From positions 1 through 27,143 of the IMG/VR virus record IMGVR_UViG_3300025849_000177: DNA of 27,143 nucleotides; one strand, written 5' to 3'. This DNA comes from a virus. A program made the translations under genes and the position numbers. How positions within the stretch are numbered: position 1 is the stretch's first letter; every line of letters starts with the position of its first letter. Positions 3-10,222 of this stretch are shown piece after piece. A model generated the notes under the pieces. It was not told the DNA's origin, ran no database searches, and worked only from the letters and a program-made list of their open reading frames with translations.

Positions 3-3000
3 GTGTTTGTTGAAGTATCTAATGCCGCAGTAGAGCAGTTACGTTTTTCTGACGGTGCTATTATACCTGTAATAACTAACGATATAGACTTAGGTACTTC
101 TGGTTTAGAGTTTAAAGATTTATACTTAGATGGTACGGCACACATAGATACACTTGATGTAGATATTAATGGTGCAGTTGCAGGTACATTTACTATAGGA
201 AGTACACTAGGTGTTACTGGAACAACTACTCTAAGTACAGCTAATATAACTACAGGTGTTATTACTTCTGTAGATATTAACTCTGGTGCGATTGATAATG
301 TAACTATAGGTGGTTCAACAGCAGGTGTTGGTTCATTTACCACACTTAATGCTTCTGGGACATCCACTCTTGCTACCGTAGATATAAATGGGGGTGCTAT
401 TGATGGTACTATTATCGGTGCAAATACTGCCGCAGCCGCTACAGTAACAGCCCTAACAGCTTCTGGAACATCTACACTATCTACAGTTGATATAAATGGG
501 GGTGCTATTGATGGCACAACTATAGGTGCATCTTCAGCCGCCGCTGGTAGTTTTACTACAGTTACGACTTCTGGTCAGGCTACCCTAGCTAGTGTAGATA
601 TAAACGGCGGCAACATTGATGGTACTATTATTGGTGCTTCTTCTACAGCCGCAATCACAGGTACAACTATTACAGGTTCTAGTTTTGTAGGGCCACTTAC
701 AGGTAACGTAACAGGTAATACAGCAGGTGTTCATACAGGTAACGTAACTGGTAACGTAACAGGTAATATTACAGCAGGTTCAGGTACATCTACACTTAAT
801 AACCTTACAGTTAATGGTACGCTTGATGTTACAGGTACAACTATTGCTAATGTTACTGACCCAACCAATGCTCAAGATGCAGCTACAAAGAACTATGTAG
901 ATACAGAAGTATCAGCACTTGTAGATTCTTCACCTTCCGCATTAAATACTCTTAATGAGTTAGCGGCGGCAATCAATGATGATGCAAGCTTCTCTACAAC
1001 AATAACAAACTCAATAGCTACTAAGTTACCACTGGCAGGTGGAACTATGTCTGGTGCAATTGCGATGGGTACTAGCAAGATAACTGGACTAGGTGATCCA
1101 ACAGCTAACCAGGATGGTGCTACTAAAAACTATGTTGACACAACTGCCTTACTAAAATCAGGTGGTACTATGGCATCTGCTATAGCGATGGGTAACAATA
1201 AGATTACTGGATTAGGTACACCTACTGCTAATACTGATGCAGCAACAAAAACGTATGTTGATAGTATTGCTGGATCAAATACTGCGGCGGCGGCTAGTGC
1301 TACTCAAGCGGCTACTTCAGCTACCAATGCGGCTACATCAGCTACAAACTCAGCTAACTCTGCAACATCTGCGGCTACAAGTGCTACTAATGCCGCTAAT
1401 TCTTATGACTCTTTTGATGATAGATACCTTGGTGCTAAATCATCTGCTCCTACAGTAGACAATGATGGTGATGCTCTTATTACAGGTGCATTATATTTTA
1501 ATACTACAAGTAACATTATGTTTGTTCGTAGTAGTGCAGGTGGTTGGCAAGCCGCTGGTTCATCCGTTAATGGTACATCAGGTCGTAACACATACACAGC
1601 TACAGCAGGTCAAACAACATTCTCTGCAACATATGATGTAGGCTATGTAGATATTTATCTCAATGGTGTAAAACTTTTAGTTGGTACAGACGTAACAGCT
1701 ACAAGTGGTTCTACTGTAGTATTAGCTACAGGTGCTACTGTAGGTGATATTATTGACATCGTAGGCTACGGTACATTCCAACTTGCAGATCACTATAGTA
1801 AGACAGCATCTGATGCTAGGTTCTTAGGTCTAGCTGGTGGCACTATGACAGGTGACATTGATGGTAATGGCAATAAAGTTTTATTCGGTAACGTATACTC
1901 TCAGTTATCAGACTTACCAAGTGCATCAACTTATCATGGTATGTTTGCTCACGTTCATGCAACAGGTAAGGGTTACTTTGCTCATGCAGGTAACTGGGTT
2001 GCTTTAGCTAATGACACAGAAAAACTAAACTTATCTGGCGGTACTATGACAGGTAACTTAGACGTTGGTGGATCGATTGAGTTTGATAGCCTATCTGGTA
2101 CAGGTTCTGTCTCTATCACAGATATACTTGATGAAGATAACATGGCATCTAACAGTGCAACAGCACTAGCTACACAACAGTCTATCAAAGCTTATACAGA
2201 TACAGCAGTAGCAAACTTAGTTGATAGCTCACCTGCTTCTCTTGATACACTTAATGAGTTAGCCGCAGCACTAGGTGATGATGCATCATTCAGTACTACT
2301 ATAACTAATAGTATTGCTACTAAGCTACCACTAGCAGGTGGTACACTTACAGGCAATCTGGATGTCGGTGGCACAGTGACTGCTGATGGGCTGACTGTGG
2401 ATGGTGATGGAAAGATTACAACATCTTCTGGTATTGGATTGCAATTACACAACAGTAGTTCTAATCAATCTTATCTACAATTTACAAACAGTGCTACTGG
2501 TGAAAGTTCAGCAAACGGCTTCCAAATAGGTATAGACGGTTCGGAAGAAGGTTTGATTTGGCATTATAAGAATGAGCCTATAAAATTTGCTACAAACAAC
2601 ATAGAAGCCATACGCATAGATGCATCAGGCAACTTGCTTGTGGGACGTACCTCCACAAGTGGTAATGATGCTGGTGTTGAAGCTAGAGCAGACGGTCAAA
2701 TTGTAGGCACAAGAGATGGAAATCGTGTCGCATACTTAAACCGTAAGACATCTGACGGTGATATAGTGCAGTTCGCCAAAGACGGCACAACTGTAGGTAG
2801 TATTGGGAGTTACTCTGGGTCTTTTCTGAAGATACAATCAGCAGGTAATCAGTCAGGTACACTTTACGGCACTACTGCGTATTATCCACTTAAAAACGAT
2901 GCGTTAAGTGATGCTGATATTGACCTTGGTGGTACAAGCAACCGCTTTAAAGACCTCTACCTATCAGGCTCTATAGCTAATCCATCTGGCAACCTAACAC

Positions 3001-3953
3001 TGGATGCGTCAGGAGATATTATTCACGACTCAGATGGTGCTAACTGGCGGCTCAAAGACAATGGCACACAAATTTTACATATTAGTAGACCCTCTGGTCA
3101 GGTAAAGTTTTTCTCTAGTGTTCAAGATGCTGATATAGTTTTTGGTGGTATGGATGGAACTTCAGCTATCACAGCCCTCACCCTTGATATGTCTGAGGGT
3201 GGTCGTGCTTATTTTACTAATGGCTTTAAACTAGGCGATACTCAGAAAGCATTTTTTGGTGATGGTAATGACTTAGAGATTTATCATGATGGCACTAACA
3301 ATCGCCTTACTCTTAATTCAGCAAACACTTATATACAAACAGATGGCATCATTCATTTTACAGATATAGGTAACAATGAAAAGCATCTTACAATAAATGA
3401 TAATGGCGCAGTTACTCTTTACTACGACAACGCCGCCAAACTCGCCACATCATCAAGCGGTGTCACAATAACAGGCACAATCAACGGCGGCGACTTGCGT
3501 GGTGAGGCTTGGACTATTGGTCGTGATGGCAACGATTATATCGTCGTAGACTCCAACAAAATAGACTTTGCTCTTGATAACAATATTGACATGCGTCTTG
3601 AGAATGATGGTGACTTACACGTTGATGGTAATGTAGTTGCTTACTCTACAACTACTTCAGATGAGCGTCTAAAGAAAGACATTGTGAAGATTGATAATGC
3701 CTTAGATAAAGTATCACAGCTAAGTGGTTACACATTTGAATATATTGCAGATGGTAAAAAGTCTGCTGGTGTTATTGCTCAAGAAGTTGAGAAGGTAATG
3801 CCAAGCGCAGTATCAGAAACAACATTGCCTCTTAAAATGGGTGAAGATGATAAGACTGAATACAAGACAGTGCAATACGATCAACTTCATGGATTAATGA
3901 TTGAAGCAATCAAAGAACTAAAAGCTGAAATCGAAGAATTGAAGGAGAGGTAA
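3..3953 (+). CDS. Long tail fibre protein with C-terminal S74-type chaperone domain (5' end cut by window)
   Basis: Host-recognition fibre of the virion. The frame is open to the window edge and its first codon here is GTG, not a convincing start, so the gene probably begins upstream. At least 1316 residues are visible. The protein is Gly/Thr/Ser/Asn/Asp-rich and built from beta repeats: 36-residue units near residues 81-225, GNVTGN units near 234-256, a heptad Ala/Thr/Ser/Asn stretch at 432-466, and two LNELAAA...KLPLAGG modules. Near the end it has the LEIYHDGTN and YYDNAAKL motifs typical of marine phage fibres. From about residue 1219 the sequence SDERLKKDI, then GVIAQEVEK and QYDQLHGLMIEAIKEL, marks an intramolecular chaperone (peptidase S74). 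This family trimerises the fibre and cleaves itself just before that Ser. The next gene starts 5 bp after the stop, behind a strong GGAG site. Fibre identity is clear; the receptor is unknown. Confidence 0.9.
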   Translation: MFVEVSNAAVEQLRFSDGAIIPVITNDIDLGTSGLEFKDLYLDGTAHIDTLDVDINGAVAGTFTIGSTLGVTGTTTLSTANITTGVITSVDINSGAIDNVTIGGSTAGVGSFTTLNASGTSTLATVDINGGAIDGTIIGANTAAAATVTALTASGTSTLSTVDINGGAIDGTTIGASSAAAGSFTTVTTSGQATLASVDINGGNIDGTIIGASSTAAITGTTITGSSFVGPLTGNVTGNTAGVHTGNVTGNVTGNITAGSGTSTLNNLTVNGTLDVTGTTIANVTDPTNAQDAATKNYVDTEVSALVDSSPSALNTLNELAAAINDDASFSTTITNSIATKLPLAGGTMSGAIAMGTSKITGLGDPTANQDGATKNYVDTTALLKSGGTMASAIAMGNNKITGLGTPTANTDAATKTYVDSIAGSNTAAAASATQAATSATNAATSATNSANSATSAATSATNAANSYDSFDDRYLGAKSSAPTVDNDGDALITGALYFNTTSNIMFVRSSAGGWQAAGSSVNGTSGRNTYTATAGQTTFSATYDVGYVDIYLNGVKLLVGTDVTATSGSTVVLATGATVGDIIDIVGYGTFQLADHYSKTASDARFLGLAGGTMTGDIDGNGNKVLFGNVYSQLSDLPSASTYHGMFAHVHATGKGYFAHAGNWVALANDTEKLNLSGGTMTGNLDVGGSIEFDSLSGTGSVSITDILDEDNMASNSATALATQQSIKAYTDTAVANLVDSSPASLDTLNELAAALGDDASFSTTITNSIATKLPLAGGTLTGNLDVGGTVTADGLTVDGDGKITTSSGIGLQLHNSSSNQSYLQFTNSATGESSANGFQIGIDGSEEGLIWHYKNEPIKFATNNIEAIRIDASGNLLVGRTSTSGNDAGVEARADGQIVGTRDGNRVAYLNRKTSDGDIVQFAKDGTTVGSIGSYSGSFLKIQSAGNQSGTLYGTTAYYPLKNDALSDADIDLGGTSNRFKDLYLSGSIANPSGNLTLDASGDIIHDSDGANWRLKDNGTQILHISRPSGQVKFFSSVQDADIVFGGMDGTSAITALTLDMSEGGRAYFTNGFKLGDTQKAFFGDGNDLEIYHDGTNNRLTLNSANTYIQTDGIIHFTDIGNNEKHLTINDNGAVTLYYDNAAKLATSSSGVTITGTINGGDLRGEAWTIGRDGNDYIVVDSNKIDFALDNNIDMRLENDGDLHVDGNVVAYSTTTSDERLKKDIVKIDNALDKVSQLSGYTFEYIADGKKSAGVIAQEVEKVMPSAVSETTLPLKMGEDDKTEYKTVQYDQLHGLMIEAIKELKAEIEELKER
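243..672 (+). repeat. About four tandem 36-codon (108-bp) repeats in the tail fibre
   Basis: Clear unit boundaries fall at 351, 459 and 567, with a diverged unit before 351. Each unit carries the core VDINGGAIDGTxIGA followed by an Ala/Thr-rich strand. The repeat is kept better in protein than in DNA, which suggests an old duplication of a beta-structured fibre segment. Confidence 0.8.
702..769 (+). repeat. Short GGTAACGTAAC repeats encoding GNVTGN units
   Basis: The 11-mer GGTAACGTAAC occurs three times exactly, at 702-712, 738-748 and 750-760, with related GGTAATA variants between and after. It lies in frame inside the fibre gene and encodes a run of Gly-Asn-Val-Thr units. Confidence 0.8.
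1296..1400 (+). repeat. Five tandem 7-codon repeats (SATxAAT/N) in the tail fibre
   Basis: Residues 432-466 read as five heptads of the form SATQAAT, SATNAAT, SATNSAN, SATSAAT, SATNAAN. Ala/Ser-rich heptads of this sort are found in lambda-like side tail fibres, where they are thought to form trimeric coiled shafts. The shaft role here is inferred. Confidence 0.75.
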
Positions 3954-3958
3954 GTTAG

Positions 3959-4951
3959 ATGGCGTTACCATCCAGTGGACAGATAAGCCTTAACCAAGTT
4001 AATGTAGAGCTTGGCCTAAGTGGTACAGCACAAATTGGCATGAACGACAGTGCTGTGAGGACTCTATTTGATGATGCTTCTGGACAAATTTCTATGTCTC
4101 AAGGGCATGGTAAGGCTAATGAATTTAGCTTTACGATTAGCTCTAGTACAGAAGAAGCTAATTTATCTTCACTTGCGTCTAGTGCTGGTTGGAATGGAAC
4201 TGCTCCTTTAATATGTAATATAAATTCTGGCGTATATCTATGGAGTGATGACATTACAGTTGGTGGCCTTACAATAAGTGGGTCTTACGCAAACGGCGTT
4301 ACTGTAAATAACAGTGGTTTCATTATGGGCAGGGGTGGACAAAGTGGTGGTGGTTTATCGGGTACATACCAACAAGGTTATCCCGGTGGTGATGCAATTG
4401 AAATATCGACATCAAGCTCAGTGACTATCAATAATAACTCTGGAGCTTACATAGGCGGCGGTGGCGGCGGCGGCGGTGGAGATTGGGGCGGCGGCGGAGC
4501 TGGTGGTGGCGGTGGCGGTGAAAACGGCGAATATGATTATGCATATGGCGGACGAGGCGGTACAATAGGTCAATCTGGGGCTAATGGTAATGACCCTTAC
4601 AATGCAGGACGCCCTATAGCTTACGGCGGCGGTGCAGGCGGCGGCGGTGGTGGCGGCGATACTAATTATCAAGTAAGACGTGGCGCTGGTGGTGGTCGTA
4701 TCTTCCCCGGTACTGGTGGTGCTGGTGGTGGCGGTAGCTCTCTGGCAGGCGGCAATGGTGGTTCTGCTGGAAACGGCGGTACATCTAGGAATGGTTTTGC
4801 TGGTCCGGGCGGCGGCGGTTGGGGTGCTTCTGGTGGTACTGCCTCAGGTGCAACACCTAATGGTCCGGGCGGTGCTGGCGGTAAAGCAATAGAAGACAAC
4901 GGCAGTAGCTACACGCTATCAAACAGTGGCACAATTTACGGAGCAACATAA
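3959..4951 (+). CDS. Polyglycine-rich tail-tip protein or adhesin candidate
   Basis: A 330-residue protein. The N-terminus (MALPSSGQISLNQVNVELG, then SAVRTLF and SGQISMSQGHGKA) matches, from memory, a conserved leader on many marine phage tail proteins. The middle (about 55-160) looks beta-structured. From residue 166 to about 312 it is dominated by glycine runs, the first nine glycines long, separated by short polar segments. Such glycine-rich repeats form polyglycine-II bundles in the distal adhesin gp38 of T4-like phage S16. By analogy this could be the variable receptor-binding tip carried by the preceding fibre. A strong ribosome site (AAGGAGAGG, 3942-3950) precedes the start. The stop overlaps the next start by one base. 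The virion role is well supported; the exact tip function is inferred. Confidence 0.7.
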   Translation: MALPSSGQISLNQVNVELGLSGTAQIGMNDSAVRTLFDDASGQISMSQGHGKANEFSFTISSSTEEANLSSLASSAGWNGTAPLICNINSGVYLWSDDITVGGLTISGSYANGVTVNNSGFIMGRGGQSGGGLSGTYQQGYPGGDAIEISTSSSVTINNNSGAYIGGGGGGGGGDWGGGGAGGGGGGENGEYDYAYGGRGGTIGQSGANGNDPYNAGRPIAYGGGAGGGGGGGDTNYQVRRGAGGGRIFPGTGGAGGGGSSLAGGNGGSAGNGGTSRNGFAGPGGGGWGASGGTASGATPNGPGGAGGKAIEDNGSSYTLSNSGTIYGAT

Positions 4952-5328
4952 TGGCTAATATATGGGTTTACACAGGTACAGAATATACAACCGAAAATGC
5001 GGTGAACGCCGCAGTTGTGGAAAGAAAAGCTCGTTTAGAAAATAATCCGACAGATTGGGCTATTGTAAAAGAGCTAACTGGAAATGCTGATGATGGGTGG
5101 GTTGTACCATCTGAAACGCTCTCAGATAGTGAGATTAACAGCTTAGATGCAACCAAATATTACAGCGTTGCCGCAGTAGTTGATGGCAATAATGATCTAG
5201 GGCTTACTGCCTCTGAAGCAACTGCAAAGGTGGCAGAGCATCGCACATCGTATGCTCGATTTATACAAGCAAATACAATTTTACTTCTTTATCCGCCATC
5301 TAATGTAGATATGTCTGGTTACGTTTAG
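4951..5328 (+). CDS. Hypothetical tail-region protein, possible partner or chaperone of the Gly-rich tip
   Basis: A 125-residue acidic protein with no motif I can name. It opens MANIWVYTGTEYTTENAVNAA and is mixed alpha/beta in character, with no membrane segment or signal peptide. Its start shares one base with the stop of the Gly-rich gene (TAATG), and GGAG lies 8 bases upstream, so the two are probably translated together. In many phages the gene after a receptor-binding tip encodes its assembly chaperone. That role is plausible here but rests only on position. The gene ends the first tail cluster, since a non-coding gap of about 120 bp follows. Confidence 0.6.
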   Translation: MANIWVYTGTEYTTENAVNAAVVERKARLENNPTDWAIVKELTGNADDGWVVPSETLSDSEINSLDATKYYSVAAVVDGNNDLGLTASEATAKVAEHRTSYARFIQANTILLLYPPSNVDMSGYV

Positions 5329-5449: not shown

Positions 5450-5674
5450 ATGGGAAAAACAGAAAAAAACCCTACTATAACAGTTAACGATAAAGAATAC
5501 GAAATTGAGAGTATGACTGATCAGCAAAAGATTATGATTAATCATATTACAGATTTAGATCGTAAGATTTCTACAACACAGTTCAACTTAGACCAACTAA
5601 GTATTGGCAGAGAAGCTTTCGTCAATAGGCTTACCGCTTCCTTAGAAGAACCAGCCGTAGAAGAAGCAGCATAA
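5450..5674 (+). CDS. Small DUF6447-like phage protein
   Basis: I place the start at ATG 5450, 6 bases after AAAGGAG, rather than at an upstream in-frame codon with no ribosome site. That gives 74 residues. The protein is MGKTEKNPTITVNDKEYEIE, then a predicted helical stretch with DQQKIMINHITDLDRKI and QFNLDQLSIGREAFVNRL. It ends in an acidic Glu/Ala tail. This layout matches, from memory, the DUF6447 family common in marine phages, next to tail fibre genes and of unknown role. It sits between the regulatory-looking gap and the second fibre gene, so a structural or fibre-accessory job is likely. The family assignment is moderately sure and the function is unknown. Confidence 0.65.
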   Translation: MGKTEKNPTITVNDKEYEIESMTDQQKIMINHITDLDRKISTTQFNLDQLSIGREAFVNRLTASLEEPAVEEAA

Positions 5675-5700: not shown

Positions 5701-7677
5701 ATGAGTAAGGCAAGAGACTTAGCAGACAGCGCACAAGAAATAAACATCTTAGATGGTAAGAGCTTCCTTGATGAGGATAACCTTGCCAGTGACTCTGCTA
5801 CTGGCATTGCTAGTCAGCAGTCTATCAAAGCATATGTTGATGGTATCACTACAACTAACATCACCTCTACAGGTGCATTGAATAGTGGTAGCATAACGTC
5901 AGGCTTTGGTAACATAGACAATGGCTCATCTACTATAACAACTACAGGTGCTATAACAGGTGGTAGCTTTGTAATAGGTAGTGCTGATATTAATGAGAAT
6001 GACTTAGAGAGCATTGACGGTATTACCGCAGGTACAGTATCAGCATCTAAAGCTGTAGTAGTTAATACAGACAAAGATGTAACAGGCTTCCGTAACATAA
6101 CAGCTACAGGTACTATTAGTGGTACACTTAGTGGTTCTCTATCATCTACTACTACAGCAACTACACAAGCTGAGTCTGATGATAGTACTAAGATAGCTAC
6201 AACAGCTTATGTAGTAGATAAGATTACGACACTTATTGGTGGCGCACCTAGTACACTCAATGATTTGAATGAGTTAGCTGCGGCTATCAATGATGATGCT
6301 AACTACAACTCTACACTCACAACAGCATTGGCTACTAAGTTACCTTTAGCTGGTGGTACAATTACTGGTAATATAACTTTTGGCGACAATAACAAAGCCA
6401 TATTCGGTGCTGGGTCTGATCTACAGATTTACCATGATGGGTCAGGTTCGTATGTAAAAGAAGGCGGCACTGGTTCTTTATATCTTCAAGGTACAGATGT
6501 TCGTATTCAAAATGCGTCTGGTGAAAACATACTAAATGGTACATCTAATGGCGCAGTAACCATTTACTACGACAACGCCGCTAAACTCTCCACTACCTCC
6601 ACAGGCATTGACGTAACTGGCACAGCCGTAACAGACGGTGTTACGTCATCTGGCAACATTGAAATTGCAAAAGATAGTCCTCAAATTTTGTGGAATGATA
6701 CAACGGGCGGCACTCAAGTAGACTATTCTGCATATGCAAACGGAGGGGCATTTGCGATAACTGATGTGCCTAACAGCTACAACTTATTAACTCTAAATAG
6801 TGGCTCTGTTTCTTTGGCGTATCAATCTACGGTAAAACTAGCCACAACATCAACAGGCATACAAGTCACAGGTAATATAGCTAATGCTTCTGGCAACCTA
6901 ACATTAGACGTTGCAGGAGATATTACTCTTGATTCAGATGGTGGATATATTTGGTTTAATGATGGTGGAAATACTATTGGGTATTTGAAAAATGAAAGTA
7001 CAGACCTGTCAATAAATGTCCATAACCAAAATAGAGATATATTTTTCAAAGGCAATGATGACGGCTCAACTATCACAGCCCTAACCCTTGATATGTCTAA
7101 TGGTGGTAAAGCTACATTTAATAATGGCATAAGTAGTCCTAGTGGTCATGTTAGTCTGGGGTCTTCTTCTTGGGCTGATGATATTCTGTATCTAACTCGT
7201 TCTAATGATGGAAAAATGCAAAGGTTTTTCAAAGGAACAACTGAGGTAGGTAGTATTGGAACAAATAGTAGTCAACTTTTTATTGCATCACCAGTATCTA
7301 ATGACAGTGGTCTTGTATTCTCAAGTGGTGAAATACATCCTTGTACAACAACAGGTGCAGTAAGAGATAATGGAATAATGCTTGGCGCATCTGGTAAACG
7401 ATTTAGTGACGTATACGCTGTAAACTTCCACGGCGATGGCTCTAACCTAACAGGTGTTGGTGGCAGTACAACTTGGGATGCTGTTGGTACTTATGCAGCA
7501 GGTGTTTTGTGGCGGCCCAACGCCGTTAATCCCGGTGCTACAGAATCTGGTTCTAACATTAGAGCATGTCAATTTGATGGGATTAATTCTTCTGGTTATA
7601 CACTTAGTGGTACTTGGAGAGCTATGGGTTACACGAATCAAGGTTACAGAGGTACAGTTTGGGTAAGAATATCTTAA
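5701..7677 (+). CDS. Second tail fibre protein
   Basis: A 658-residue fibre with its own start (MSKARDLADSAQEINILDGK) behind AAGGATGAG. It shares several cassettes with the first fibre: DEDNLASDSATG...SIKAY near residues 24-45, LNDLNELAAAINDDA...KLPLAGG near 186-220, DLQIYHDG near 240, YYDNAAKL near 290, and ITALTLDMSNGG near 458. The C-terminus differs. It lacks the S74 chaperone and instead ends with HGDGSNLTGVGG followed by a module of about 75 residues finishing GTWRAMGY...GTVWVRIS. That end resembles a receptor-contact or closing domain seen on marine phage fibres. The phage therefore carries at least two fibres, perhaps with different targets. Fibre identity is firm; the division of labour is inferred. 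Confidence 0.85.
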   Translation: MSKARDLADSAQEINILDGKSFLDEDNLASDSATGIASQQSIKAYVDGITTTNITSTGALNSGSITSGFGNIDNGSSTITTTGAITGGSFVIGSADINENDLESIDGITAGTVSASKAVVVNTDKDVTGFRNITATGTISGTLSGSLSSTTTATTQAESDDSTKIATTAYVVDKITTLIGGAPSTLNDLNELAAAINDDANYNSTLTTALATKLPLAGGTITGNITFGDNNKAIFGAGSDLQIYHDGSGSYVKEGGTGSLYLQGTDVRIQNASGENILNGTSNGAVTIYYDNAAKLSTTSTGIDVTGTAVTDGVTSSGNIEIAKDSPQILWNDTTGGTQVDYSAYANGGAFAITDVPNSYNLLTLNSGSVSLAYQSTVKLATTSTGIQVTGNIANASGNLTLDVAGDITLDSDGGYIWFNDGGNTIGYLKNESTDLSINVHNQNRDIFFKGNDDGSTITALTLDMSNGGKATFNNGISSPSGHVSLGSSSWADDILYLTRSNDGKMQRFFKGTTEVGSIGTNSSQLFIASPVSNDSGLVFSSGEIHPCTTTGAVRDNGIMLGASGKRFSDVYAVNFHGDGSNLTGVGGSTTWDAVGTYAAGVLWRPNAVNPGATESGSNIRACQFDGINSSGYTLSGTWRAMGYTNQGYRGTVWVRIS

Positions 7678-7695
7678 TAATAATAGGAGGCGTTA

Positions 7696-8115
7696 ATGCC
7701 AACAGTAACAATAACAGAAGTGCGTAACGCACAATCTCTTAACGCAGAAAATACTGCATTTGATGTAGAAATAAACCATCCAGAGTATGATTGGATACCT
7801 TACACATTAAGCCCTGATGATACAGATATGACTGTAGACAACAGCGTATTGCTTACACTCATTGGCTCAGACTTCGAGGCTTATGTAGCACCTACTCAAG
7901 CAGAACTAGATGCAGAACTAGCGGCAAATCTAAGAGGCCAACGTGACCAGAAGTTAGCCCAAGAAGTAGACCCAATAGTAACAAACCCTCTACGTTGGGC
8001 TGAACTTACAGATGCTAAACAAACAGAGTGGACACAGTACCGAACTGATTTACTTAACCTACCAGCACAAGCAGGTTTCCCGAATACAGTAACATGGCCT
8101 ACAAAGCCAGAATAA
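7696..8115 (+). CDS. Tail assembly chaperone-like protein (Phage_tail_APC type)
   Basis: A 139-residue protein with a near-perfect AGGAGG site (7685-7690) five bases before the start. The N-terminal half is beta-rich. The C-terminal half (about 83-139) has the signature of the Phage_tail_APC family: LRGQRDQKLAQEVDPI, a central WAELTDAK, then WTQYRTDLLNLPAQ and GFPNTVTWPTKPE at the very end. These proteins are annotated as tail or tail-fibre assembly chaperones in many phages. Its place directly after a fibre gene fits that role. A virion structural role cannot be excluded from sequence alone. Confidence 0.75.
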   Translation: MPTVTITEVRNAQSLNAENTAFDVEINHPEYDWIPYTLSPDDTDMTVDNSVLLTLIGSDFEAYVAPTQAELDAELAANLRGQRDQKLAQEVDPIVTNPLRWAELTDAKQTEWTQYRTDLLNLPAQAGFPNTVTWPTKPE

Positions 8116-8389: not shown

Positions 8390-10222
8390 ATGGCAAAAAA
8401 GTTTATAGGGTTTAAACCTGAGACACTACAAAAGAAGGTTTTACCAGCGCTGGGTTACAATGGCCCTATGGACAATAAGTCTATTAATCTCTTTCTAGCA
8501 GCTAACCCCAGCGCCGCATCTAAGATGGGTAAGTTTACACTAGCGGCTAGGCGTACCATAGAAGGTAAACCTGTTAAGATGATGGCTGAGGGTGGTGTAA
8601 CTATCAACAGCGGCGCTAACATCATGACTAAGGCTATTACGTCTGATCCTCGTAAGCTAACTATTAAGGCTGAGACAGAGGCAGATAAAGGTGTAGGCAC
8701 AGACATTGCTACAGGTACAGGTCAAGCAGGTGATGTAAGTACAGCAGGTGTTACAACAGCTATGCCCTCTCCAGATGCTGTAGCTGCACCTATTGTACAA
8801 CCAGCTACTATAGACTCTGTTACAGCTACTCCAGCAGTAGATACAGCCCTCTCAGGTGTTACTCCAGCTACAGGTGTAGTAAGTGACGAAGCTACTATGA
8901 CAGCGGCTACAGGAGATCCTACTAAGTTAGCTCAACTAGATCTACAGGCGGCACAGGGTGAGGCGGCTAAAGTAGAAGATGCTCCTACCCGTGTTGTTGA
9001 AACTGGAGAGATGATTGATGGCTCAGCTGTAGATCAAACAAAAGTACAAGACATTTATGGAACACAGAAGCTAGAAGCGGCTAGTGTTAAGGATGAGTTA
9101 GACTCTCTTATGGCAGACTTTGAGGGTGGAGCTACACCAACTTGGGCTGCAGGAGCTATGAGGAATGCTACAGCTACTATGGCTGCGCGTGGCTTAGGTG
9201 CATCATCACTGGCTGGTATGGCTATAGTACAAGCGGCTATGGAATCTGCACTACCTATTGCACAGATGGATGCATCTAATAAGCAAGAGGTTGCTATGGA
9301 GTCTGCACGTCAACGTGCTGGTTTCCTCAACATGGAGTTTACTCAAGAGTTCCAAGCTAAGGTTCAGAACGCATCTAGAATATCTGAGATAGCTAACATG
9401 AACTTTACTGCACAACAGCAGGTAGCTCTTGAGAATGCTAAGATGGCTCAGACTATGAACTTAGAAAACCTGAGTAATCGTCAGGCTAAGGTTATGGCTG
9501 ATGCGGCAACTATGTCTCAGATGGACTTAACTAATCTAAACAATAGACAACAAGCGCTGGTACAAAACGCTCAAGCATTCTTACAGATGGATATGGCTAA
9601 CCTAAGCAATGAGCAACAGACAAGTATGTTTGTAGCACAACAACGTGTTAATACTATTCTATCTGATACAGCACAAGAGAATGCAGCTAAGCAGTTTAAT
9701 GCTACATCTGAGAATCAGACTAACCAATTCTTTGCTACACTTTCTACACAGGTATCACAGTTTAACTCTGAGCAAACCAATGCTATGTCTCGTTTCAACG
9801 CTGGTGAAGCTAATGCTCTATCTAGGTTTAACTCAGATCAAGATAATGCACGTGATCAGTTCAACGCTACTAATCATTTGATTGTAGCTCAGGCTAATGC
9901 TCAGTGGGCGCAGTCTATAACAACAGCTGAGAATGCCTCAGATAATCAAGCTAATCGTGACGCAGCTTTAGCCGCTAACAACTTAACCATGACTGCCTAT
10001 AATAACATGGTTCAACGTGAACGAGATATTCTTGCTTGGGCTTGGCAGTCAGGTGAGAACGCTGCTCAGAGGGATGCTAGTATTGCTATGTCTAAGATTG
10101 CTGCTGAGGCTAAGGCTTCTGCTGGTGGCGACACTGATTCTAGTGGCTTGTCAGCCGCATCAGGAAAGTTCCTTGGGGAGATTGCTGTTAATGCAGCAGC
10201 CCTACTATTCGGAAAGTTATAA
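8390..10222 (+). CDS. Large virion protein with 11/22-residue repeats (likely internal or tail structural)
   Basis: A 610-residue protein. The first 60 residues contain FIGFKPETLQKKVLPALGY, and an Ala/Thr/Pro-rich, low-complexity stretch follows to about 190. The rest is very helical and rich in Ala, Gln, Asn and Met. Residues 356-421 are three 22-residue units beginning MNLENLSNRQ, MDLTNLNNRQ and MDMANLSNEQ. Residues 435-511 are seven 11-residue units of the QFNxxxxNxxx type. Hendecad periodicity implies a long coiled coil. There is no signal peptide or catalytic motif. Its place between tail genes and the muramidase, and just before the internal-protein cluster, suggests an ejected core protein or tail component. 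The start has only a weak TAGGGA ribosome site, 3 bp after the previous stop. No specific family recognised. Confidence 0.65.
   Translation: MAKKFIGFKPETLQKKVLPALGYNGPMDNKSINLFLAANPSAASKMGKFTLAARRTIEGKPVKMMAEGGVTINSGANIMTKAITSDPRKLTIKAETEADKGVGTDIATGTGQAGDVSTAGVTTAMPSPDAVAAPIVQPATIDSVTATPAVDTALSGVTPATGVVSDEATMTAATGDPTKLAQLDLQAAQGEAAKVEDAPTRVVETGEMIDGSAVDQTKVQDIYGTQKLEAASVKDELDSLMADFEGGATPTWAAGAMRNATATMAARGLGASSLAGMAIVQAAMESALPIAQMDASNKQEVAMESARQRAGFLNMEFTQEFQAKVQNASRISEIANMNFTAQQQVALENAKMAQTMNLENLSNRQAKVMADAATMSQMDLTNLNNRQQALVQNAQAFLQMDMANLSNEQQTSMFVAQQRVNTILSDTAQENAAKQFNATSENQTNQFFATLSTQVSQFNSEQTNAMSRFNAGEANALSRFNSDQDNARDQFNATNHLIVAQANAQWAQSITTAENASDNQANRDAALAANNLTMTAYNNMVQRERDILAWAWQSGENAAQRDASIAMSKIAAEAKASAGGDTDSSGLSAASGKFLGEIAVNAAALLFGKL
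9455..9922 (+). repeat. 22- and 11-codon tandem repeats encoding a hendecad coiled coil
   Basis: Three 66-bp units (9455-9652) encode MxLxNLSNRQ-type 22-mers. After a short linker, seven 33-bp units (9692-9922) encode QFNxxxxNxxx 11-mers. 22 is exactly 2 x 11, so both blocks share one structural period. The DNA is diverged, so selection appears to act on the protein. Confidence 0.75.

Follow-up and report, generated by a model that had tools for sequence, protein, structure and literature searches.

Known gp38-Type Adhesins

The closest described systems are the gp38 adhesins of phages S16 and PP01. In S16 gp38 (PDB 6F45; PF05268 and PF21721), two extensions of a beta-helix form a polyglycine-II lattice, with hypervariable loops between constant Gly motifs. 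The gp38 gene lies directly downstream of the gp37 fibre gene, which ends in Peptidase_S74. The protein attaches to the gp37 trimer through three helices and three tryptophans, which occupy three equivalent pockets (PMC6851490). The receptor-binding domain of gp38 from E. coli phage PP01 (9V85) also has a beta-helix, a polyglycine-II sandwich and loops; in difference from the locus studied here, its receptor is OmpC and the loop contacts were cross-linked (PMC12892980).

Similar adhesins have been reported from other viruses. In haloarchaeal Hafunaviridae (myoviruses), glycine-rich, hypervariable gp38-like adhesins determine host range (PMC8651126). A small gene follows the head in these archaeal viruses, as in the present locus, the likeness being one of description. 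The polyglycine "brush" fingers of siphovirus tail hubs (LSH1, mycobacteriophages) were proposed as antireceptor (PMC13243795), but they are fused to hub proteins, whereas the present adhesin is a separate fibre-tip gene. In addition, gp38-type adhesins were listed in 2014 among the host-recognition genes of marine phages, in phage islands (PMC3909814), and UniProt already labels Gp38-domain proteins with the gp38 fold in uncultured and Rhizobium phages.

Gene Organization of the Locus

The window, that is, the whole stretch of 27,143 nucleotides analysed here (IMGVR_UViG_3300025849_000177), showed 79% nucleotide identity to Roseobacter phage CRP-207, with 43% of the window covered. CRP-207 is in the HMO-2011-type group, which was assigned to Podoviridae (PMC9038755). 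The resemblance of the phage to HMO-2011-type podoviruses is supported by this similarity, and the "marine podovirus" of the original prediction can be kept on these grounds, morphology not being its basis. In CRP-207, only one fibre gene is annotated at the corresponding place, so the fibre module of the window is unlike that of its closest isolated relative. The features of the locus are as follows:

3..3953, +, long tail-fibre gene truncated at the 5' end by the window border, at least 1316 aa, gp37-like partner with C-terminal Peptidase_S74
3609..3656, +, mature fibre-tip motif GDLHVDGNVVAYSTTT, directly ahead of the putative site of self-cleavage (Ser1219|Asp1220)
3657..3812, +, Peptidase_S74 (chaperone of endosialidase) domain, PF13884
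3959..4951, +, adhesin gene, gp38-type, 330 aa (PF05268 above the gathering score, phrog_2056, AlphaFold2 model and fold match)
3959..4120, +, N-terminal plug (adaptor), residues 1-54, conserved among relatives and also present on unrelated heads, three model helices
3974..3997, +, plug repeat 1, residues 6-13, SGQISLNQ (profile self-comparison)
4025..4048, +, plug repeat 2, residues 23-30, TAQIGMND (profile self-comparison)
4079..4102, +, plug repeat 3, residues 41-48, SGQISMSQ (profile self-comparison)
4121..4456, +, central beta-helix, residues 55-166 (GP38 profile match, model strands)
4337-4387, +, first short Gly-rich extension, residues 127-143, inside the central beta-helix part
4457..4882, +, predicted polyglycine-II region, residues 167-308, Gly framework with hypervariable loops (column profile of 63 relatives, pLDDT dips)
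4883..4948, +, C-terminal strands that close the beta-helix, residues 309-330 (KAIEDNG..YTLSNSGTIYGAT), model strands 318-322 and 325-327, conserved
4951..5328, +, companion gene for a 125-aa protein of compact alpha/beta fold (AlphaFold2 model, linkage to gp38-like heads)

The companion starts at position 4951, the final base of the adhesin stop codon, in agreement with the one-base overlap noted in the original prediction. Between the companion and a second fibre, a small gene (5453-5674) matched phrog_21153 (function unknown; E 5e-19). The second tail fibre (658 aa, 5701-7677) has neither S74 nor the tip motif, and is followed by a Phage_tail_APC assembly protein at 7696-8115 (together 5701-8115). 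The phage thus seems to have two fibres, each with a different maturation partner.

Family and Fold of the Adhesin

The adhesin matched PF05268 (GP38) over residues 57-187 (profile positions 3-133 of 218) with a score of 28.2 bits, above the cut-off of 25 (E 2e-6), and phrog_2056, "tail fiber protein; host specificity" (E 8e-8). The profile of 63 relatives matched the T4-type (T-even) gp38s over residues 45-175 with a probability of 97.7 and an E-value of 1.7e-12. Sequence searches of the PDB with the single adhesin protein and with the first family profile gave no match, presumably owing to composition-bias filters, and the link to 6F45 and 9V85 came solely from the fold search.

An AlphaFold2 model built from the alignment of the 63 relatives had a pLDDT of 91.1 and a pTM of 0.85. 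The glycine region reached a pLDDT of 84-97, with dips in the blocks 191-200, 211-220, 231-240 and 291-300, each of which holds loops. In the fold search of the PDB, the gp38 proteins of PP01 and S16 were the only matches under E 0.001. The VIA-align Z-scores were 19.4 for S16 gp38 (6F45_D; 225/248 residues, about 28% structure-aligned identity) and 18.3 for the PP01 receptor-binding domain (199/222 residues), and the next-best matches were unrelated beta-helices with Z of about 8 (8.2). The Bxb1 tail-tip chain matched the glycine region alone, with Z 4.2.

In the model, strands 121-123 and 147-151 flank the first extension, and strands 164-166 and 318-322 flank the second. The first extension has about 17 residues and the second about 142, whereas those of S16 have 18 and 77 (PMC6851490); the lattice should therefore be larger in the window than in S16. 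The model strongly supports a packed polyglycine-II lattice formed by two extensions of a beta-helix, the arrangement that characterizes the gp38 family, here as a prediction. A disordered glycine linker, the outcome against which the original prediction was to be checked, was thus not what the model gave. The S16-type gp38 polyglycine-II adhesin proposed there is supported by PF05268, the AlphaFold2 model and the fold match.

Counterparts were also found in isolated phages. In Rhizobium phages such as RHph_I46 and RL2RES, a "putative tail fiber adhesin" with the same plug and a gp38-like beta-helix follows an S74 fibre, as in the window; these phages differ in having large genomes annotated as myoviruses, and the PF05268 score of RHph_I46 was barely below the cut-off. 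Furthermore, gp43 of Sphaerotilus phage vB_SnaP-R1 and its counterparts in Limnohabitans phage YIMV22061 and Macromonas phage BK-30P (Autographiviridae) have a gp38-like beta-helix and a polyglycine region. These are isolated podoviruses whose head gene lies just behind the fibre gene, as in the window, but they are without the marine plug and no S74 fibre end was seen in them. Their heads are annotated "hypothetical protein" or unannotated, including two Autographiviridae proteins annotated as hypothetical that exceed the PF05268 cut-off. The plug-free PF05268 adhesins of vB_SnaP-R1 and YIMV22061, which are podophages of wastewater/freshwater bacteria, are at L099:3911-4687 and L102:2908-3744. 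The extension of the gp38 architecture to a further tail type, as originally proposed, was correct, but it was not the first, given the haloarchaeal myoviruses, the siphoviruses, the marine phages and two podophages.

Glycine Region and Variable Loops

Position 4454 is codon 166 of the ORF 3959-4951. The glycine runs described from this residue of the 330-aa protein are real: Gly made up 71 of the 143 residues from 166 to 308 (49.7%), compared with 15.5% in the remainder of the protein, and short non-Gly segments break up the runs. The Gly codons were mixed (GGC, GGT and GGA). All 15 invariant columns in the alignment of the 63 relatives were Gly, as were most of the nearly invariant ones. The mixed codons and the invariant columns indicate that the region is neither due to chance nor a drifting GGN microsatellite. 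A GGGWG..G motif was also nearly invariant in these divergent relatives.

Column entropies over the 63 relatives placed hypervariable loops near residues 173-176, 188-196, 208-222, 232-241, 255-263, 275-282 and 294-303, and the segment near residues 128-142 was likewise variable. The variable segments differed in both sequence and length. Constant Gly motifs with hypervariable segments between them are a property of the gp38 family, S16 gp38 included. A pooled comparison of loops and framework covered 2485 pairs and was partly circular, because the loop segments were picked on the very alignment that was measured; close pairs are the better evidence. For L060/L088, the beta-helix was 94% identical and the loops 27%; the values were 83% and 16% for L009/L011, and 75% and 17% for the window and L021. 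In some close pairs, such as L072/L079, the loops were nearly identical. Conserved loops among relatives had been set beforehand as the finding that would speak against the prediction; the loops were hypervariable and the glycine framework was kept.

N-Terminal Plug

Profile self-comparison showed that the plug contains a triple repeat, starting at residues 6, 23 and 41, with a score of 38.1 compared with a permutation maximum of 14.3 (0/500 column permutations). The AlphaFold2 model has three short helices, one going with each repeat. Plug counterparts occurred in nearly all of the 63 relatives, L015/L016 being an exception, and also on heads unrelated to gp38. The N-terminal domain typical of marine phage tails that the original prediction pointed out is real, and it is common to many other heads.

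The plug is different from the attachment part of S16 gp38, being a Trp-free triplicated domain. The locus also departs from S16 in having the companion gene behind the head and in lying on a podovirus genome. PF21721 (Gp38_N) had no match in the adhesin in Pfam. When the marine plug was aligned by hhalign with the Gp38_N N-termini of T-even phages, the probability was 0.6, with no detectable homology, and none of the 63 plugs had three Trp. Gp38_N with three helices each carrying a conserved Trp, as in T-even/S16-type gp38, was hence not found, although three short helices are predicted. Residues 1-54 are interpreted as a plug of pseudo-threefold symmetry that would fit a trimeric fibre tip, and the head, like S16 gp38, is predicted to be a monomer on such a tip. 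On this reading, the plug would act like Gp38_N without belonging to its family. Since it has no detectable sequence relation to Gp38_N and no Trp triad, docking is proposed by analogy.

Upstream Fibre and Tip Motif

In the upstream fibre, PF13884 matched residues 1219-1270 (E 5e-17). The adhesin gene lies directly downstream of this S74-bearing distal fibre gene, the order seen in S16 and characteristic of the gp38 family. A search of viral contigs by the fibre end of the window alone gave 75 usable loci, and in 75/75 the plug gene came next, only a few bases away; these loci are not independent, being 66-97% identical to the fibre end of the window. Among the S74 relatives, 73/79 had the tip motif ahead of the cleavage site. 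Among fibres without a recognised S74 that precede plug genes, the protein stopped after the tip motif (...GNLTVTGNVTAYGTV) in 41/67, compared with 7/1093 other ORFs of those loci, a contrast somewhat inflated by a background that takes in mechanical ORFs. The distinct plug proteins behind S74 fibres carried 48 gp38-like, 20 other glycine-rich and 13 non-glycine heads.

Companion Gene

The companion had no relative in Pfam, PHROGs or the PDB, and thus matched neither Phage_tail_APC nor another tail-fibre assembly family; within the window, the gene at 7696-8115 did match Phage_tail_APC. A tblastn search of isolated phages gave no relative either. The AlphaFold2 model had a pLDDT of 92, Foldseek gave nothing under 0.001, and the best VIA Z-score was 3.6, to unrelated PDB chains. 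The folds of Tfa and of the T4 gp38 chaperone were missing from the match list, an absence that is no proof of different folds.

Behind S74 fibres, homologues of the companion followed 24/46 gp38-like heads compared with 0/32 other heads (Fisher 1e-7). After clustering at 60% identity, the numbers were 11/24 and 0/22 (p 2.4e-4). As the homologues follow gp38-like heads exclusively, the companion tracks the gp38-type head and not the plug or the fibre. It is not generally required, since about half of the gp38-like heads behind S74 fibres are without it. Short ORFs behind other heads (KYAxxNPxTGxY...) were considered as relatives of the companion, which was not confirmed, the identities being just 9-17%. 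The companion is a candidate head-specific chaperone or partner. The chaperone proposed in the original prediction finds indirect support in the linkage to gp38-like heads, and none in a match to a known chaperone family or fold.

Proposed Mechanism and Significance

We consider it highly likely that the adhesin forms a monomeric head which binds the receptor at the end of a podovirus tail fibre, working like gp38 of T2, S16 and PP01. The upstream fibre would trimerise aided by its C-terminal Peptidase_S74, which would then cut itself off and expose the fibre tip ...GNVVAYSTTTS. This self-cleavage chemistry is known from the Peptidase_S74 family and would apply to the fibre of the window. The three-repeat plug would dock one head on the three chains of the tip. 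The remainder of the head is predicted to be a beta-helix with its two extensions folded into the packed lattice. By analogy with T2, S16 and PP01, we infer that the loops between the polyglycine-II helices are displayed, bind the host surface and set host range; such a head would very probably choose the host. The 125-aa downstream protein most likely helps fold or load the gp38-type head, which is the simplest reading of its linkage.

Two other readings concern the adhesin itself. If the glycine region were structural filler, or a linker that is flexible or of low complexity, another part of the phage, such as the second fibre, would bind the receptor. The Gly sequence is indeed of low complexity, and the second fibre has its own assembly chaperone downstream, but the high pLDDT throughout the region, the specific gp38 fold match and the invariant Gly columns with GGGWG..G in 63 relatives, a framework that a linker would not retain, make this very improbable. 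It is also unlikely, if less so, that the head is attached by its N-terminal domain straight to the tail or baseplate instead of the S74 fibre tip. The plug does occur behind upstream genes without recognisable S74, and a plug-fibre complex is a proposal; against this, every fibre end fetched by fibre sequence precedes a plug gene, fibres without S74 share the tip motif far above the other ORFs, and the triple repeat suits a trimeric partner.

For the companion, a quite plausible alternative to a folding or loading helper is that the protein stays in the fibre tip as a permanent second component, or that it is a small unrelated protein travelling with some gp38-like heads. That no known tail-fibre chaperone was matched in Pfam, PHROGs or the PDB, and no fold either, fits this, as does its absence after about half of the comparable heads. 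A dedicated helper is consistent with the direct adjacency and with a linkage confined to gp38-like heads, and genes for tail-fibre chaperones often come immediately behind, an example being Alteromonas phage V22 (PMC7289586).

We also lean towards a broader reading, in which the plug is a general, Trp-free trimer-to-monomer coupling of marine phages with several tail types. It would fit a G-N-V-x-A-Y tip produced by S74 self-cleavage or by a stop codon, and carry swappable heads: gp38-type polyglycine, other glycine-rich, non-glycine and, on one contig, one that is apparently diversified by a diversity-generating retroelement. Because the plug in related viruses bears quite different heads too, the result suggests that these viruses change hosts through head swapping on one standard fibre end.

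None of the open-licence papers searched was found to describe the triplicated plug, the partner motif on the fibre tip or the companion linked to the head. New in this study are the threefold plug repeat without the S16 tryptophans, the linkage of S74 fibres to plug genes and the linkage of the companion to the head. According to PMC9038755, HMO-2011-type phages dominate in the ocean and are widespread there. Most of their genes are without assigned function. With a gp38-type head found on one of these phages, the protein that likely determines host range is identified together with its variable loops. From a diffuse set of "hypothetical" marine tail genes, the triplicated plug and the fibre-tip motif make a modular system that can be tested, with one coupling and many heads, and the companion linkage offers a concrete candidate for folding or loading of polyglycine heads.

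Other Head Arrangements

On the contig L014 (8001-9293), a plug gene has a head ending in an apparent variable repeat of a diversity-generating retroelement. The variable repeat (8513-8638) differed from the template repeat (9168-9293) at 28/126 positions, 26 of them at template adenines. RVT_1 had no match on this contig; between the two repeats is an ORF that, judged by eye, resembles Avd. In the T-even relatives Matisse and Phynn (L108:1501-2028 and L110:1501-1989), a Gp38_N-like N-terminus is joined to a non-glycine C-terminal domain; head swapping on an attachment domain thus seems to happen there also. In addition, L006 (3067-5129), L029 and L091 have tandem or paired gp38-like heads per contig, each with its own plug, which are possibly alternative heads of one phage.
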